Of a stretch of DNA of 20,267 bases, positions 1,817-20,267 are shown piece by piece; the first letter of the stretch is position 1; each line of letters begins with the position of its first letter. The notes beneath the pieces were generated by a model. That model searched no databases, was not told the DNA's origin, and was given only the letters and a program-made list of their open reading frames with translations. Origin of the DNA: a virus; IMG/VR virus record IMGVR_UViG_3300035698_011874, positions 1 to 20,267 of that record. One strand, written 5' to 3'. The position numbers and the translations under genes were made by a program.

Positions 1817-2056
1817 TTAAACTGGCGGCGTGTAGCTTCCGGTTACTGTTAAATCAACTATGGTTGCTGATGCGGCAGTGATACTCCCAGTGACTATTAG
1901 GTTGCCGTTGACGGTTAGGTCTCCATTGACTACCTGATCTGTATTGACATTCAACGCCTTGGTGGTGTCAGCATCACCAATATCCATCGTATTTTTAGCG
2001 GTCCCATAGCTGTCTTTCTGTTTCTCATTGTTTATAGCGTATAGTTTTTTAGCCAT
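1817..2056 (-). CDS. Small beta-repeat tail protein (79 aa)
   Basis: A 79-residue protein beginning MAKKLYAINNEKQKDSYGTA. From about residue 43 it is built of short strand repeats: NGDLTVNGNLIVTGSITAAS followed by ATIVDLTVTGSYTPPV. Repeats of the type DLTVNGNLxVTGSI are usual in trimeric fibre shafts, where each repeat is one beta strand. The gene has its own GGAG-type ribosome site within the short gap after the large tail-tip gene, and an AGGAG directly follows it for the next gene. The real short ORF, with good signals at both ends and no overlap, argues that it is a separate gene, not a broken piece of its neighbour. A likely role is a small adaptor or shaft segment between the tail tip and the fibres. 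This is inferred from the repeat and position only. Confidence 0.6.
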   Translation of the reverse strand: MAKKLYAINNEKQKDSYGTAKNTMDIGDADTTKALNVNTDQVVNGDLTVNGNLIVTGSITAASATIVDLTVTGSYTPPV

Positions 2057-2069
2057 ACCTCATCTCCTC

Positions 2070-5000
2070 TTAATCAATAGTATCCTGTATCTCCGGGTCT
2101 CCCGGGTTATAGGTATCAGTCCAATCGGTTGGCGTACGGTAAACATCCTGGATGTAGAACTGCTCATCATCACCAGCATTATAAATTACAGCCTGTATTT
2201 TTACGCTCGTTTTGTTTGCGGCGGCTGTTGGTACATCCTTAGCTATCTTCTCCACTATACAATACATGTCTGACCCATCAGTCTGGTGAGGAAGAAGCAG
2301 TTTGAACCTCTTAGTGAGGTACCAGTCTTTGCCCAATCCATATGGTATCGTGAAGCTGACCCTCTTTCTACTCTGCCAATACAACCAGTTATAGAGATAG
2401 TATCCGGCCTCTTCATCCCTGTATATCAAATCCAGTTCCGTGAGAGACGTCGGGGCCTCATTGATTATGCGGTATTTCATATATAACCCGCGTGCTAGAC
2501 CCCAAATTCTTTCTTTATATCCATCAGATATACCAGATCCACTCACATAGGTAGTGTCAAATGTGTCCTTATCTACATTGGTGACTTCCATATTACTGTC
2601 ATATAGATTGGTAGCTGTGTTCTTATTGTAGTAGATCACCGGTTGACAGAAGATATCCTTGTATCCATTCTGAGTGATGGGGCTGATCTTGCCGATAATT
2701 TCATCGAGAGTAACCGGTGTGTACACATATTCATCATCAGCGAGTGGGTTTACTATGCTGTCTACAGCCTCATATCCGTTGTTAGTCTGGTAGGATGCCA
2801 AGAAAAATTGCTGACAGATCTTTTTCTTTAACTTATCAGTGTACGCTTTACTTGCGTCAGTGATGACACTCCTTAGTTTCAAGGACTTCTCGTATGAGTA
2901 TCCTGGGTAATTGAAAGCCCCATGCTCACTATCGTTTTTGATAAGCACAGTAGCTGCTCTGCCTTGACCCCACCCATTAGTAGGAGCTGCTCCATTAAGT
3001 TCACTCCAGTTTTGGCGGTAGCATAAATCCTCCAGAAATGATATCGGATTATCTATGAGACCTGCCTGTGTGCCATCTGTTGAGCGCCCGTCGAATGGGA
3101 AGAATATTTTAGCGTTCAGGGTCGTAGAGCTCTTAGTAATGAGGCTACATTGCCTGATATTAAGCGTAAAAGGTTTTGGCATACCAGCACCGGTTGCAAC
3201 CTCTACATAAAAGAATAGCCCTATCTTACGTAGTGATAAATGGTCGCTTTTGCCTCCAGGTATTTCCATAGTTTTATTACCACTTCTTACAGCAGCGGCA
3301 GGCCCACCAGAAACATATATAGGAGTGTCGTCATAGAAATCCTGGTCTCTATCCCTGTATGCTAAGTCCTGAGGCACATCACCATCCCAATATTCTTCTA
3401 CGTAATTGTTAAATACTCCTCCCGTGTAAATCGTGCCCGCTGCGTTCTGTGTGTAATCTGATTTATTAGCACACCAATGGGAGTCCTGGCCAGTTACGTC
3501 TGCTGCATAGTTTATCCCCTGACGACAGGACATGGTCTGTCCGGGATCTTCGTAGATTTTACTGATGCCTCCCCAGAAACTTTTACCACGAATGATCAAA
3601 TCTAGGGTACCTATTCTAGCTGACTGACCTATATTACCCCCGTCAGTATACGCATCAGCAGCAAATGAAAAATACAGGGAATCGTAATCAATAGACTCTA
3701 ACAGCTCGTAGGGAACGTCAAATTCCAGGCAATGTAGCGCAAATACCGTTCTATTGAGTCCCCCTATATTGCCTGGAACCCCTTGTTGCATCCCCCACGA
3801 CAGAGGAGTGCTCCACTTATTATCAGATAGTTTTGCTAGGTCTGCTGCATTAGGCACATGAGAGAATGACGTATAGGGCTCATATACATTAGTTGGGATG
3901 CCATTTCCGAATCCGTTACGTGTATAGACACCAGTGCCGCGATAACTTAAATCATCTGCCAACAGGATATCTCTTATAGCATCATCGCCCTCACCAGCAG
4001 GAAGCACCCATTTATCAAATTCAGACGGTGCCTCTTCATAAAAATGAGGGGTAATATCTATGTTACCATATGCTACTATGTTCCCCACATCTCTCTCAAG
4101 GTATCTGGGATCAATCGTTATACTTTTTCTGTCAGCAGACGTCACAACAGCTATGCCATAACTAGGCAGGGGTACATATGTTGTGTCTCCGGCTATTATG
4201 CTGTCAAGCAGTTCACCGGTTATCGGATTATAATCCAGCTTTAGATCCTGTTCACTGTTATATATAGTGAGAGTATCGGTGATGATGTTACCATCACCGT
4301 CCGTGAAACCGGCTGTGCTGGCTGTCTCTCCATCAAAAGTCAGCGAGACCTGTACTATCTGTATCCACGTATTATCTGGATAGGAGGCGTACCAGTTGCC
4401 CTTGAGATCATCATCATAGTACGCTGCCAGCACCACTTTGAGTATAGGGTAATCCTCGAAGTTTATGTTAAACGGATATGCTCCACCCTGGGTACCGGGT
4501 ACCCTGTCAGGCCGCCACTCAATACTTTCTATTTTACGGTACTGGCCCTGCCCCTGCCCGGTGAGACTGTATATGAAATAGTCGTCTGTCAAGTCCACCC
4601 CTATGGCAGACGAGAATGCTGCGGTATCAGCGAGAGTAGTCTCATTACCCATCCGGATATAAAGTGTATCTCCCTGGTACTCGATGACCGGTACACTTTT
4701 CTGATCATTTGGTGTAATCGTTGCTCCGAAGTTAGTGAGATCCAGGATAGTCCTGTCTTGTGCAGTACGTATGAAGGCACTTTGAGTGGTTGCTCCGTAG
4801 ACGACCGGTATTGTTTCTCCCACTTCCTCCACACCCGCTGTAGGATTGTCTGCTGACATTATCACGGTGGCTATGTTTGCAGTACGTTTATCGTTCGGTA
4901 CATTAATTTTCAGCGAGTATTCGGTCTCAGAGTAGCTCTCAAAATTTATGATGCCTCGGAACACAGTCTCGGTGGTCTCAGCATCCATGTCAAATTCTAC

Positions 5001-5354: not shown

Positions 5355-6196
5355 TAGGTTACTTTCCTAAATTTAAAGCCGATGTCGACATCCTTGAATA
5401 AATTGTGTGTCATTCTGATAGAAGTCTGAGACAATTTGCATGTAAATCCCTGGTCATCACCCGATTCATAGCCAAAAGGATATGAATTTGCGGGTACTAC
5501 GAACTCAAATGAGGTAGCCCTGGCTGATGTCCTAAGTTGATATAGTAACTGACCGGCAACATCCTCTGATGTATATGCAGTGAAGGATGTCTCAAATGCA
5601 TCCGCATCCTCACCTCTATTGATCTGATAGACTTCACCACCCCTAGTAGTGCTCGTGTAATAGGCATAGGAGACCTTAGGCTTGAACATATTCTTTGGGA
5701 ACCTTACATTAGGTATCCCATCTATAGTGAGCGTACCAGGCTCTGTACAGCTTCCTAGGGAAGGATTAACTTCCTCAGTGAAATCATTCATCACAAGAGT
5801 AATCTCAAATGAGTGGTAGAGATAAGGCTTTGCCACCTGACCTTTATTGACGAACTTCTCTATGCGACTCTCAAATGACGTGCCTAGTGGGAAGGTAAAC
5901 CCAAAGGGATACATGCCCCATGATGCAGGAGCAAAGAAAGTTATAAGTTCATTACGACCTATGTCCTCAAAGAATGTGGTAAGATCTGATGCCTTATCTG
6001 CTGTTGTAAACAGCCTAAATTTAGATCTTACATAGTCATACTCTTCACCATTATCATATATGGCTATGTTTCCATCTGTCCTGTCAGCCACATTAAATGG
6101 AAGGACAAGCTCTATAGAGTATTTGTTATTGATATCGTCTATGTAGCACCGGGTGCCACCACCGACGTTTTCAACGTATGCTAGGTCTCTTGCCAT
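5354..6196 (-). CDS. Putative distal tail protein
   Basis: A 280-residue soluble protein starting MARDLAYVENVGGGTRCYID. It lies directly between the tape measure gene and the large tail-tip gene, where siphophages encode the distal tail (Dit) ring protein that joins the tube to the tip. The content is mainly beta with many aromatics, and no signal or membrane segment is visible. Two segments have a similar feel: PASWGMYPFGFTFPLG near residue 90 and FVVPANSYPFGYESGDD near residue 230. This may mean a duplicated fold, but the likeness is weak. The ribosome site TAAGGAG is formed by the stop codon of the tape measure gene, 12 bases upstream. Its stop overlaps the next ATG by one base. I do not recognise a family motif, so the function is taken from position. 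Confidence 0.5.
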   Translation of the reverse strand: MARDLAYVENVGGGTRCYIDDINNKYSIELVLPFNVADRTDGNIAIYDNGEEYDYVRSKFRLFTTADKASDLTTFFEDIGRNELITFFAPASWGMYPFGFTFPLGTSFESRIEKFVNKGQVAKPYLYHSFEITLVMNDFTEEVNPSLGSCTEPGTLTIDGIPNVRFPKNMFKPKVSYAYYTSTTRGGEVYQINRGEDADAFETSFTAYTSEDVAGQLLYQLRTSARATSFEFVVPANSYPFGYESGDDQGFTCKLSQTSIRMTHNLFKDVDIGFKFRKVT

Positions 6197-15989: not shown

Positions 15990-17654
15990 TTACTCTCCAT
16001 TTTGTTGCTGTATGATATCATTTTTGACTCCATTTACTTTTATAAAGCTTATAAGTAGGGGCAATTCCTTCTCAGCTATGCTTTTGTTTAGTTGGTACAT
16101 GTCCTGAAACATCTCATGTATGACGCGCTTATCCACAGTCGTATAGGCTTTTGATAGGATCTGAGACAAAAGTTCTTTATAACCGGATGACCTTCTGTTT
16201 AAAAAGTCTACAATATCAGCAGCGTCTACTGAAACATCCTTTATTTCACTGATTAAATTGCTGATTAAAGGAAGGTATGCACCCTTCAGCTCCTCCGTCA
16301 TAGCATCAAATTCTTCTTCGAGGGTGTAATCGACCTCTTTACCGGCATCAATTTTATCAAGGCATTTGTTCCGGAGCTTCGTGAAGTAACGGTTCAGGGA
16401 GGATTTGAGGGTTTTAGTATACGGACGGATATCTAATTCTTGATCTTCCATATCTTCTTCCTCATCGGTAGGCTCTTCGGTAGAGGCAGGCGGTGCTGCA
16501 GGCTCTTCAGCTGCATCAGCCTCCTCTAATTCCTCCACATAATCCCAATCGACAGGGATATTAAGCAGCCGGGCAGCTTCCTGCTTAGGCATCCCTGTTG
16601 ACATAAGCGCAGTATAAGCAGTGACCTTATCGCCCTGGATATCCTGTAGAGCCTCCACTTTGCTCAAGTCAGAGCGCAATTCCCAGTCTTTATCAAGCCC
16701 TACTATCCACTGATACGTGAATGCTTCGTTGACAAGCCTATCAATGGGAAGCAATGACTCCTGCCAGAATGTCTTCTTAGCAGTAATGGAGTTGGAATAA
16801 TTCACATCTGAGTAGTCAGACACAAGGCTCTTAGGCACTTTGAACGCTGCCAGTATACGTTCCTTGATAAAATCCTGCTGGAACTTAATCTGCATGTCCT
16901 TAAATGTACTAGAGATAGCCTGATAAGTTAAGCCTGAATGTAAGATAGGGGTCTTGCCAACCTTCTCAGTTCCGGAATACTTATCCGAAAATTGTGATGC
17001 TATAAACTTCGCCTGTTCTTCGGTGAGCTTCTCTCCTGTAGAGAGTACTCCGCCTATCTGACAATTGTTCTTAAAAAAGTTTGCTGTATATGATGTGGCG
17101 TTTGCATCCTGGATTATAGTAGGCATAGCAGCGAGGAGAGGCGGCATGCCCTTGGTTTTGTCGTATGGATTGTAGAGCCTGACCCGGATAAGCTGATTTG
17201 TTGTATATGGAATATCTTTCTGTCCCGGCGCGTATTTCCACACATCGATGATGTTGTTTTGGTTAGACTTAGCCTTCATATACTTATCTTTAGTGAGATA
17301 CAGCTCACGCGGTATCTGTCCGGCAGCTAAATCCTGCATATCGTCAGGCAATATGAATAATTGCCCTTCTAGCATAAGATGTATGACAACAGATTCCCAG
17401 AATGTCTCTCCAAAAGTCTCTGCGTTAGTTCGGGTGAATAGGTCCAGTACTGGATGATCATCAATTCTCTCTTCTGTACGCTTGTTGTAGATGTACTTAC
17501 CGAGTGAAGAGAGGTTATTTGCTATCATGGACACACAGCTATACACCCAAACCTGGTACTCATAAGGCTTATCCGTCGTATATTTGGCTATATTGGTGAT
17601 CAGCTTATCGGTTGATGACCCCAGGAACGGGAATAACGAATTTAAACTGGCCAT
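15990..17654 (-). CDS. Portal protein, HK97 type, with C-terminal extension
   Basis: A 554-residue portal protein, the dodecameric ring through which DNA enters and leaves the head. Seen: an N-terminal YEYQVWVYSCVSMIANNLSS helix near residue 31 (the V-x-x-C-V-x-x-I-A pattern of phage_portal proteins), HPVLDLFTRTNAETFGETFW, LYLTKDKYMKA, a wing region, and ERILAAFKVPKSLVSDYSDV near residue 267, followed by KKTFWQESLLPIDRLVNEAF. All are family hallmarks. Residues of about 365-408 form a very acidic Ala/Pro/Glu linker (EELEEADAAEEPAAPPASTE), and some 145 residues follow that are helical and charged, beyond the usual 400-430 length of HK97 portals. The role of that part is unknown. AGGAG precedes the ATG by seven bases. 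Its stop nearly abuts the protease ATG. Confidence 0.93.
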   Translation of the reverse strand: MASLNSLFPFLGSSTDKLITNIAKYTTDKPYEYQVWVYSCVSMIANNLSSLGKYIYNKRTEERIDDHPVLDLFTRTNAETFGETFWESVVIHLMLEGQLFILPDDMQDLAAGQIPRELYLTKDKYMKAKSNQNNIIDVWKYAPGQKDIPYTTNQLIRVRLYNPYDKTKGMPPLLAAMPTIIQDANATSYTANFFKNNCQIGGVLSTGEKLTEEQAKFIASQFSDKYSGTEKVGKTPILHSGLTYQAISSTFKDMQIKFQQDFIKERILAAFKVPKSLVSDYSDVNYSNSITAKKTFWQESLLPIDRLVNEAFTYQWIVGLDKDWELRSDLSKVEALQDIQGDKVTAYTALMSTGMPKQEAARLLNIPVDWDYVEELEEADAAEEPAAPPASTEEPTDEEEDMEDQELDIRPYTKTLKSSLNRYFTKLRNKCLDKIDAGKEVDYTLEEEFDAMTEELKGAYLPLISNLISEIKDVSVDAADIVDFLNRRSSGYKELLSQILSKAYTTVDKRVIHEMFQDMYQLNKSIAEKELPLLISFIKVNGVKNDIIQQQNGE

Positions 17655-17693: not shown

Positions 17694-19019
17694 CTAAAAC
17701 ACAAAAAGTCCGGGCAGCGATCTTATTTCGCTGTGTACTTTAGCCCACCACGCATAGCAAAGGGCATCTGCGTAGTCGGGTGAACGTCCTATCCGCTTTT
17801 TTAACTCTTCCTTCGACTCAATCTTTATCTGCTTATCAGCCTCTACAGTATAGCGTATAGCAGCCAAGTCACTCTGTATTCTTTCGCCGGTCAACCCGCC
17901 TATTGCATGATCCGAGAAAGCCAGCTTCAGGTGCCAATATGCCTGCGCCCGGAGATTTTTATAGTTGTACGTATTTTCGTCCTCTATGACCTTGCCACCA
18001 CCTATGAAATTTATCGGATATATCTTGTCAGCTTCCAGCTCATCAATTACCCCGGCCCCAAGCCCTGCTCCATCCACAGCTACATGCTCCGCATCTACTC
18101 CATGTAACAGCATCAATTCTTTTGTCTTAGCAGTCACCTCTGGGATGGAAGTATCGGCGAACTCGATTATCTCAGTGATGTTAGAGCCTGTCATCCTGAC
18201 GAATACTGTCTTATCTTTACCGTGACCGGCGACATCTACACCAAGACTCTGAGTCCCTACGTCCTCTAGGTACATATCCCGTGCTTCGTAGAGGTCCGTC
18301 CATGGTATCAGCTGTCCGGGGTCGTCAGTGCCTTCCCAACACCCCTCCACAAATCGTTTATAGATCTCTGGAGGCAATGATTTTAGAGAATTTATATAAG
18401 TCTGCGCCAAAAATGGGTTATCCAAAATTGAACTCGGCAGATAATAGTATGGTGCCTTTAGTGTCTTGTTCACATATGGATCATAAAACAGAGTCTTACA
18501 CCAATTTTGGGTAGGATTGCATGTCATAAGTACCAAGGGTGCGGGCATATTATCTATGATCCACGACCCTGCTCGCTCTATACACTTGTAAAAAGTGGCC
18601 TGCTGAAGCTCATTCACCTCTTCCAGGCAGAATCCATTAACCTCTAACCCTTTAAACCTGTCTAAATCTTTGTCCTTGTCGTAATTCTCGCCCATGAACA
18701 GTATCTCAGAACCGTTCTTAAACTTAGCTATGTAGTCCGATGAGTTGAATGACGTTAAGAATGTATCAGGCACAATCTTCCGGAACGTTGGGATAGTGTT
18801 GCGCTTGATTACCTGTAAATCTTTCCTAACTACTGCCCACCTCGACCCTGAATACAGCTTACACATAAGGATGATGGTGGCAAGACTTACATAACTCTTA
18901 CCGCCTCGTTATCGTATGGCACCTCCATAAAGTAGATAGTTATATTGTGTACTAAAAACTGCTTTCATGAACTGCGCCTGTTTGGGGAACGGTTCGAAAA
19001 GAACTTTATTGAGTGCCAT
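17694..19019 (-). CDS. terL: Terminase large subunit, interrupted by an in-frame TAA in Walker A
   Basis: The packaging motor ATPase and nuclease. The real N-terminus starts at ATG 19019 (MALNKVLFEPFPKQAQFMKA) behind a full AAGGAGGTG at 19030-19038, but a TAA at 18909-18911 ends translation after 36 residues, inside YGGAIR-stop-RGGKSY. The rest is open to 17694; the next ATG, at 18866, lacks a ribosome site and misses Walker A. Read through, the frame holds 442 codons, normal for the family. Downstream motifs are intact: the Walker B segment NGFCLEEVNEL, the coupling motif LMTCNPTQNW, and nuclease aspartates in SLGVDVAGHGKDKT, VAVDGAGLG and RSPDYADAL. GGAIRGGKS would be the canonical loop, so a 6-nt insertion (ATACGA-TAACGA-GGC) explains it. 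It is either a dead gene, a sequencing or assembly fault, or some form of recoding. Family identity is certain; functionality is not. Confidence 0.88.
18909..18911 (-). other. In-frame stop codon TAA inside the terminase P-loop
   Basis: Minus strand codons are GGT GCC ATA CGA TAA CGA GGC GGT AAG AGT. Dropping six bases restores GGT GCC ATA CGA GGC GGT AAG AGT, the usual terminase P-loop. The spot shows ACGA-TA-ACGA, a short direct repeat around the added bases. The +1 frame stops 12 codons on, so a single frameshift does not rescue the gene. Confidence 0.85.
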
Positions 19020-19072
19020 ACTGTTCCATCACCTCCTTCACGTAAGAAGTCCTATCCCATTACGAATATATC

Positions 19073-19522
19073 TTAAAAAGTTATTTCCTGATCGCCTATT
19101 TTAAAACTCTGAGGATCAGTGATAGTGTGCTCAAACCTCTGCTTGAAGTTGGGAATGGCGTCTTTGATAATAGCTCCCATCCTGGCTGCACCGGTTGAGT
19201 CTCGTACCTTCCAGCCACCCTTTTTGTCGTCTATAAGCTCCGAACAGTTATCAAATACCCTCATGCATTTTTCCAGGAACCACGTGCAATCAAGTCCTGC
19301 GGTATGTATGATGTCTTCTCTTAGCTCTTCTATATACGCTTTCACTTTCGGGTTGTCCCGTATACGTTTTACTTGACCACTAGCTACTCTTTGTCCATAT
19401 CCGGCTTCCAGGGCCGCCACCCTTCCATCATTACCACGGACATACGATTCAGCAAACGCCTTCATCCTCGGAGTCAGATTACACGTGTGTTTTTGATTGG
19501 TCTTTGGTTTTTTTGCTGCCAT
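19073..19522 (-). CDS. terS: Terminase small subunit
   Basis: A 149-residue DNA-recognition subunit of the Terminase_2 family. After a basic N-terminus (MAAKKPKTNQKHTCN) comes the family motif LTPRMKAFAESYVRGNDGRV followed by AALEAGYG, the helix-turn-helix region that binds the packaging site, and then a helical oligomerisation part (NPKVKAYIEELREDIIHTAG). The C-terminus (PQSFKIGDQEITF) is short and would bind the large subunit. The ATG has AAGG seven bases ahead. It lies directly before the large subunit gene, with about 50 bases between them that carry only the latter's ribosome site. Length is normal. There is no sign of damage, in contrast to the large subunit gene next to it. Confidence 0.85.
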   Translation of the reverse strand: MAAKKPKTNQKHTCNLTPRMKAFAESYVRGNDGRVAALEAGYGQRVASGQVKRIRDNPKVKAYIEELREDIIHTAGLDCTWFLEKCMRVFDNCSELIDDKKGGWKVRDSTGAARMGAIIKDAIPNFKQRFEHTITDPQSFKIGDQEITF

Positions 19523-19552: not shown

Positions 19553-19906
19553 CTAAGATATCCAGATAATACGAGTGTTAACCAAATGTGTTACAGCCGC
19601 AGGAAAAGCCGTCGTGTAAATGACTAGAGGACTTAAGCTTACCCCTGTCGTAGTAGATTTAGAACTGATAATAATGTTATTTGCATCTGTATCTAATTTA
19701 GTAAGTGCAAATACGTACATACCTGCCATATTAGTAGCGTCTAACTCCGATGCCGAGTCTACTATGGCAGAAGGCGCACCGCCATCTTTACTGACATAAG
19801 CTGTAATATTAGCAGCATCACCGGTTTTAAATGTATCATTCACCGTATCGTACGCTACCACAGCTACAATCTGACCGGAACCATTTTTATATAAAGATCC
19901 AGACAT
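19553..19906 (-). CDS. Small beta-type structural protein, paralogue A (117 aa)
   Basis: A 117-residue protein beginning MSGSLYKNGSGQIVAVVAYD. It shares with the preceding gene the segment KTGDAANITAYVSKDGGAPS and then ELDATNMAGMYVFALTKLDT, so the two arose by tandem duplication. The pattern (strand, TGDAANITA, strand, ELxATNMxGxYVFxL, strand) reads as one small beta-sandwich domain. Proteins with this segment occur among phage virion genes, to my recollection, without an established role. The C-terminus, AAVTHLVNTRIIWIS, continues past the end of the paralogue. The ATG directly follows the preceding TAA (TAAATG), so translation is coupled. No cysteine, signal or membrane segment is present. 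Placement ahead of the terminase genes is unusual for a virion component. Identity beyond a paralogous virion-like protein is not claimed. Confidence 0.62.
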   Translation of the reverse strand: MSGSLYKNGSGQIVAVVAYDTVNDTFKTGDAANITAYVSKDGGAPSAIVDSASELDATNMAGMYVFALTKLDTDANNIIISSKSTTTGVSLSPLVIYTTAFPAAVTHLVNTRIIWIS

Positions 19907-20209
19907 TTATGCAGTTTCCGTGTAAATTATAACCGGCTCCAGGTATATGCTGGTAGTTGTAGATGCTGCCGAGAGAGAAAAAAGATCACAGTTAGTTTCT
20001 GGTTGATCCAAATCAAATACATATAACCCCGGCATGTTAGTAGCACTTAACTCTACAGGATTATTATCAGTAGACTGAGCAGCAGCGCCACCATCCTTAC
20101 TGATATAAGCTGTTATGTTAGCGGCATCCCCAGTCTTCTCCGTTTCTGCTGTTTTGTCGTACGCAAATACGACACATTTCTGTGAAGCTGTGTTTTTAAA
20201 TAAAGGCAT
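19907..20209 (-). CDS. Small beta-type structural protein, paralogue B (100 aa)
   Basis: A 100-residue protein beginning MPLFKNTASQKCVVFAYDKT. I choose ATG 20209 because GGAG at 20216-20219 stands six bases ahead; the ATG at 20221, four codons upstream in frame, would put that site inside the gene. The core segments KTGDAANITAYISKDGGAAA and ELSATNMPGLYVFDLDQ match the next gene nearly residue for residue, while the C-termini differ (YLEPVIIYTETA here). The proteins may assemble side by side or compete for one site. As with its partner, the fold is likely a small beta sandwich and the role is unknown; capsid fibre or decoration is a guess. Its ribosome site overlaps the end of an upstream frame. 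Confidence 0.62.
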   Translation of the reverse strand: MPLFKNTASQKCVVFAYDKTAETEKTGDAANITAYISKDGGAAAQSTDNNPVELSATNMPGLYVFDLDQPETNCDLFSLSAASTTTSIYLEPVIIYTETA

Positions 20210-20210
20210 A

Positions 20211-20267
20211 TTAAACTCCATGTGTTCTTATTCTAGGTCTTCTCTTGGCACCAGCAACCACTTCCTG
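20211..20267 (-). CDS. C-terminal end of an upstream gene (partial)
   Basis: One minus-strand frame is open from the window edge to a TAA at 20211-20213, one base before the next ATG, encoding QEVVAGAKRRPRIRTHGV. Stop-to-start packing like this is the rule in the cluster. A second frame (ending REDLE-stop) is also open for 12 codons, so the choice is not certain. A basic, Arg-rich ending is all that can be said of the product. Confidence 0.35.
   Translation of the reverse strand, partial: QEVVAGAKRRPRIRTHGV

Follow-up and report, generated by a model that had tools for sequence, protein, structure and literature searches.

Among the described systems in which ribosomes skip part of a message, the closest to the locus considered here is gene 60 of phage T4, an essential phage gene whose insert is bypassed between matched codons, with a stop following the take-off codon; the homing endonuclease MobA is inserted nearby, and the gene 60 insert is thought to protect from its cleavage (PMC5009743, PMC2988022). 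Synthetic stop-hops have been built in Escherichia coli, in which matched codons flank a stop and nine bases yield one amino acid, and a 2016 review gave the in-frame stop-hop no known natural occurrence (PMC5009743). In the mitochondria of Magnusiomyces, recurrent short byp inserts, found at 81 positions, are neutralised by bypassing (PMC5009743). Bypassing has also been suspected in a terminase gene, with a UUA codon involved (PMC5009743).

The locus described here is the P-loop of the phage terminase large subunit gene, terL. It parallels T4 gene 60/MobA in having a presumably skipped insert, matched codons, a stop at the take-off position and, in related phages, a homing endonuclease nearby. 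However, the gap in gene 60 is 50 nt long and out of frame, whereas the terL insert has 6 nt and is in frame; gene 60 relies on nascent-peptide and stem-loop stimulators, whereas the terL sites have no common structure; and gene 60 represents one phage, whereas the P-loop insert lies in a different gene and in many phages. The synthetic stop-hops have exactly the codon layout of terL but are laboratory constructs. The byp inserts are likewise recurrent and short, but they are mitochondrial and longer, and the review describes no endonuclease at the same site for them. The suspected terminase case involves a UUA codon where terL has a stop flanked by matched codons. The literature searched, which excluded preprints and most subscription journals, yielded no account of such a hop at the terL P-loop.

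An interrupted Walker A motif in terL

The window—the whole 20,267-nt stretch of viral DNA analysed here (IMG/VR record IMGVR_UViG_3300035698_011874)—carries terL with terS before it and the portal gene after it (Table 1). On the minus strand, the P-loop region reads TAT GGA GGT GCC ATA CGA TAA CGA GGC GGT AAG AGT, in which the six extra bases are the TAA stop and the following, or proposed landing, CGA. CGA is the rarest arginine codon of the window (10 of 211).

Table 1. Features of the window around the terL P-loop
Feature	Position	Strand	Remarks
terL, terminase large subunit (Terminase_3)	17694..19019	minus	one in-frame stop; 36 codons before, 404 after
terL ATG	19019-19017	minus	36 codons ahead of the stop
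AAGGAGGTG, likely ribosome-binding site of terL	19030..19038	minus	from the sequence
Walker A / P-loop codons GGA GGT GCC ATA CGA TAA CGA GGC GGT AAG	18897..18926	minus	
CGA (Arg), proposed take-off codon	18912..18914	minus	
TAA stop, proposed to be skipped	18909..18911	minus	
CGA, proposed landing codon	18906..18908	minus	missing from intact relatives
terS, terminase small subunit (Terminase_2)	19073..19522	minus	
Portal protein	15990..17654	minus	context

A first-pass annotation of this DNA had reported both a stop in the Walker A loop and an interruption of the loop by six bases, and both hold. The P-loop bases are identical in an independent contig of IMG/VR (L001, dataset 3300031227), which differs from the window by 3 mismatches over 7.2 kb, while the nearest insert-free relatives (L003–L005, 69–73% identity) align with a window-type loop that lacks just these six bases. 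An assembly or base-calling error, which the annotation had named as the result that would overturn it, is excluded by this second contig and by the many other TerL contigs that share the stop position. Its remark that TAA is a normal terminator here is likewise borne out: TAA ends 15 of the 20 main genes of the window, so it is not reassigned and an alternative code is rejected. The terL of another contig (L138) was not mended by reading it with table 15 and looks frame-broken.

Upstream of terS, at 19553–20221 on the minus strand, lie two tandem, similar proteins of ~110 aa, both with a DAANITAY.SKDGGA motif, which are likely the products of a duplicated gene.

Recurrence across environmental phages

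A degenerate search found the same arrangement in a distant phage (L006), whose terL reads GCC ATT CGA TAA CGT GGG GGT AAA. A homology-only search with the TerL protein of this phage returned 80 loci, 78 with a readable P-loop, and in seven of these (L029, L030, L041, L057, L060, L063 and L074) the loop contains a stop; all seven, and the window, have a CGN codon both before and after it. A pattern search in which TAA, TAG, TGA or TGG was permitted between CGN codons gave 40 stretches, 39 of them TerLs, across 37 metagenome datasets. Every one of the 39 has a stop (34 TGA, 3 TAG and 2 TAA), and none has the permitted TGG. For most of these 39 contigs the pattern itself demanded CGN on both sides, and the evidence on codon choice comes from the window and from the seven cases found by homology; the sequences are related within lineages, and the counts are accordingly not independent. 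Matched codons flank 19 of 291 other stops on the same contigs (6.5%), which gives the background, and the pattern matches outside TerL in viral contigs were chance. Among 84,980 species genomes the pattern had 13 matches, all by chance, so the phages with the stop allele are probably not common prophages. When the gap was widened to 1–31 nt, one real case emerged, on the contig of L057.

The stop allele is present in at least four TerL lineages and in 21 distinct nucleotide contexts, with CGC, CGA or CGG as take-off and CGA, CGT or CGG as landing codon. The third bases of the two codons are often unequal (CGG/CGA, CGA/CGG, CGC/CGT), and the base after the stop is always C. Two further regularities set these contexts against insert-free loops: the alanine codon ahead of the site is GCC in 17 of the 21 and GCG in 4, whereas insert-free relatives mostly have GCA or GCT, and the take-off codon is never CGT, which is common in insert-free loops. 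These biases could stem either from a shared cassette origin or from a role in the hop. The cultured relatives Flavobacterium phage 11b, Cellulophaga phi10:1 and Bacteroides phage Versailles, whose hosts are Bacteroidota, have unbroken P-loops of the form GGAAGG(G/A)KS, and that of Streptomyces phage Dagobah (AGPAGTGKS) is also unbroken.

A proposed ribosomal hop over the stop

The best fit to these observations is that the ribosome hops the stop and that the insert is probably the immunity half of a homing cassette, a combined reading that we regard as likely. A peptidyl-tRNA-Arg on the first CGN, with the stop and its following C in the A site, would let go, skip the stop and re-pair with the matched CGN three bases past the stop; nine bases would thereby be decoded as one arginine, and the protein would regain the normal GGAIRGGKS P-loop. 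A C after the stop is a weak, leaky termination context, and synthetic stop-hops work at low efficiency. One may speculate that the hop also holds the level of TerL low. Bypassed genes have a stop or slow codon next to the take-off codon; in every TerL case a stop, be it TAA, TAG or TGA, directly follows the proposed take-off codon, and selected coding sequence resumes past the gap. Stimulators such as a take-off stem-loop were not seen, single-sequence folds of nine sites having yielded no common stimulatory RNA structure, and because no structure is shared the site is not filed as a gene-60-type bypass, although such stimulators are not a defining trait of synthetic stop-hops. The missing structure counts against the hop reading, as do the frequent third-base mismatch between the two codons, the low efficiency of synthetic stop-hops and the lack of an HNH gene in the window and beside most stop alleles.

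The main rival is plain readthrough, in which a near-cognate or suppressor tRNA would read the stop. The leaky context would suit it, as would the use by most relatives of TGA, the leakiest stop, but we consider it improbable. The product would be GGAIR-X-RGGKS, with two extra residues that ruin the GxxxxGK[ST] spacing, which favours the hop. Were such a lengthened loop functional, one substitution, TGA to TGG, would be enough to rid the gene of its stop, and the absence of TGG in a search that permitted it argues against this. Nor would readthrough require an arginine after the stop, and no tRNA genes were found in the window. L057 bears on the same choice: its 7-nt insert, TGAACGA, is out of frame (ATT CGA TGAA CGA GGA GGC AAG), and its frame would be restored by a hop to the matched CGA but not by readthrough. 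Reassignment of a stop fares no better, with three different stops in use and TAA serving as terminator. The first-pass annotation had disfavoured recoding for its two added residues; this objection is sound against readthrough but fails against the hop, which would add none.

Selection on the interrupted gene

The stop-bearing terL is under strong purifying selection after the gap. Between stop alleles, dN/dS downstream of the stop is 0.075–0.10 where it can be estimated (~0.08), and where synonymous sites are saturated pN/pS is 0.10–0.26; these values equal those of insert-free genes. One clade of 13 distinct TerLs has the stop allele only, its rows having been gathered by the stop pattern. 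On the whole TerL tree, a quick tree with some long branches, the stop/no-stop label changes at least eight times on well-supported branches; stop and no-stop alleles sit next to each other, and gains and losses are frequent. None of nine records (up to 54 kb and possibly incomplete) has a second terminase, each having one TerL, by searches with a TerL protein query and with Pfam families, two in number; the protein query counts most, the families having missed several known TerLs.

These data bear on the reading that terL is simply broken, scarred by homing in phages that are dead or in decay or that borrow the terminase of a helper. Homing or insertion does occur at the site, and translation would normally terminate at such a stop, but dN/dS of ~0.08 on long branches, as in intact genes, the clade with the stop allele only, the spread over 37 datasets and the lack of a second TerL in the nine records make it very unlikely. 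The dead prophage and the helper-dependent particle offered by the first-pass annotation thus do not fit a widespread allele under purifying selection, and the second terminase gene that it proposed to look for did not turn up in those records.

About equally unlikely is that the mRNA, or a fraction of the population, lacks the six bases, through RNA-level removal, transcriptional slippage or mixed alleles. Close relatives do have insert-free alleles, but the site has no homopolymer run, and both assemblies of the window phage contain the insert; we also know of no precedent for a 6-nt intron, which argues against RNA-level removal. The weakest candidate, and a most improbable one, is a split gene in which a short peptide is followed by a downstream start and the ATPase works without its P-loop or together with the peptide: such splits are known at phage homing sites (PMC2988022) and the window has an ATG 15 codons past the stop, but the codons from stop to ATG, GGN GGN AAR included, are intact in every case though a restart would skip them, and the matched CGN codons would be left without a reason. 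As a whole, the evidence speaks against four readings: that the gene is dead, that the stop is an error, that the code is changed and that the stop is simply read through.

HNH homing endonucleases and the probable origin of the insert

In five stop loci (L057, L121, L111, L126 and L130) an HNH gene lies directly upstream of terL, between terS and terL, and ends 52–88 nt ahead of the stop. Pfam identifies HNH_3 in all four loci scanned and NUMOD4 as well in two; the gene of L057, which has both domains, occupies 5387–5950 on the plus strand of its contig. An HNH motif was found upstream of terL in none of 73 insert-free loci, some of which have little upstream sequence. The association gives a Fisher p of ~0.001 with L065 left out, an optimistic value given the relatedness of the sequences.

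In L126 and L130, terS is followed by a 27-codon copy of the terL 5' end that stops exactly past the P-loop GGN GCC. The relic is followed by TATTGCACC... and the HNH gene, and then by another copy of the terL 5' end and the stop-bearing P-loop, the distance from the end of the relic to that P-loop being 622 nt in both. The second 5' copy matches the first at 62 (L126) and 53 (L130) of 81 bases. L111 aligns across this cassette stretch; the relic junction was read in detail for L126 and L130. The endonuclease element is thus lodged within the terL P-loop codons and supplies a new 5' end for the gene it interrupts.

Divergence also breaks at the site. L121 and the insert-free L032 are ~95% identical just after it and strongly diverged before it, and among stop alleles of one clade mean synonymous divergence is 0.47 upstream as against 0.82 downstream, whereas insert-free pairs show 0.79 and 0.86. 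These recombination boundaries agree with the cassette anatomy. Two marks of a free-standing homing endonuclease cassette are seen: the HNH gene stands beside its target gene in the five loci but not in the window, and the target site shows an insertion junction in the relics of L126 and L130 and a break in divergence of the kind that an exchange tract leaves.

Most stop alleles have no HNH gene. The close relatives L119, L123, L125 and L131 have kept the stop without one, as has the window, where none was found between terS and terL or elsewhere in its 20 kb. The suggestion of the first-pass annotation that a mobile element might lie behind the insert gains a concrete candidate, an HNH homing endonuclease at exactly this P-loop site in related phages; the window itself has the insert without such a gene.

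The insert can thus probably be seen as a homing-immunity allele, like that of T4 gene 60/MobA but minimal. The HNH endonuclease would target the DNA of the terL P-loop, whose protein sequence cannot change, and would so have a target that hardly varies. The insert of the donor allele would break the DNA site yet vanish after translation, such that a stop and a repeated arginine codon would render the nuclease's own copy uncuttable if ribosomes hop. The established allele would also shield phages without the nuclease, and this protection would explain both its spread and the endonuclease-free state of the window. We infer both the cutting by HNH enzymes at the P-loop and the protection by the insert.

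Other inserts and variants

Besides the 7-nt insert of L057 described above, the P-loop site may also carry an insert of 41 nt and a −1 frame variant. The 41-nt insert, out of frame, is found at the same site in the terL of L097 (~5890–5990, plus strand): ATA CGA TTT TAA is followed by a 10-bp hairpin with a GCAA loop (GGGGATTGGA GCAA TCTAATCCCC) and then by AAAGATT AAGA GGT GGT AAG. This resembles a bypass element of greater length, a candidate with no clear landing codon. In L065 an HNH gene (1938–2540, plus strand) lies directly upstream of a terL with a P-loop that lacks one base (ATG GGG GGG GCA AAA CT). AMGGGKT would result from a −1 shift on G GGG GGG, or the missing base could be a homopolymer sequencing error.

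Apparent inteins were observed in two contigs. In L133 (50–2200, plus strand) the stop-bearing TerL frame extends over 724 codons with an apparent intein (..YGHCFVGETLIKTICGYKRIDEISINDLVLTRKGYKKV..), which may make this terL the host of inserts of two kinds. In L006 (500–1633, minus strand) a head-gene-like protein has an apparent small intein (CFTPDTEIEMGF...VHNC).

Implications

It seems to us somewhat more probable than its opposite that the P-loop allele is the first natural in-frame stop-hop, a translation-neutral change of DNA that gives the coding sequence of the Walker A motif immunity to a homing endonuclease in many phages. In that reading, a stop that is skipped in translation lets the phages change the DNA of a motif whose protein sequence cannot vary. 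The dozens of contigs at hand are natural stop-hop candidates with one fixed layout and a clear evolutionary reason. If the reading is true, gene-finding programs that annotate these terL genes as truncated or miss the P-loop would err for a class of phages, and what T4 gene 60 and MobA show for a single phage gene would extend to a strategy that recurs, in which a selfish nuclease targets a protein motif that does not vary and recoding supplies the immunity.
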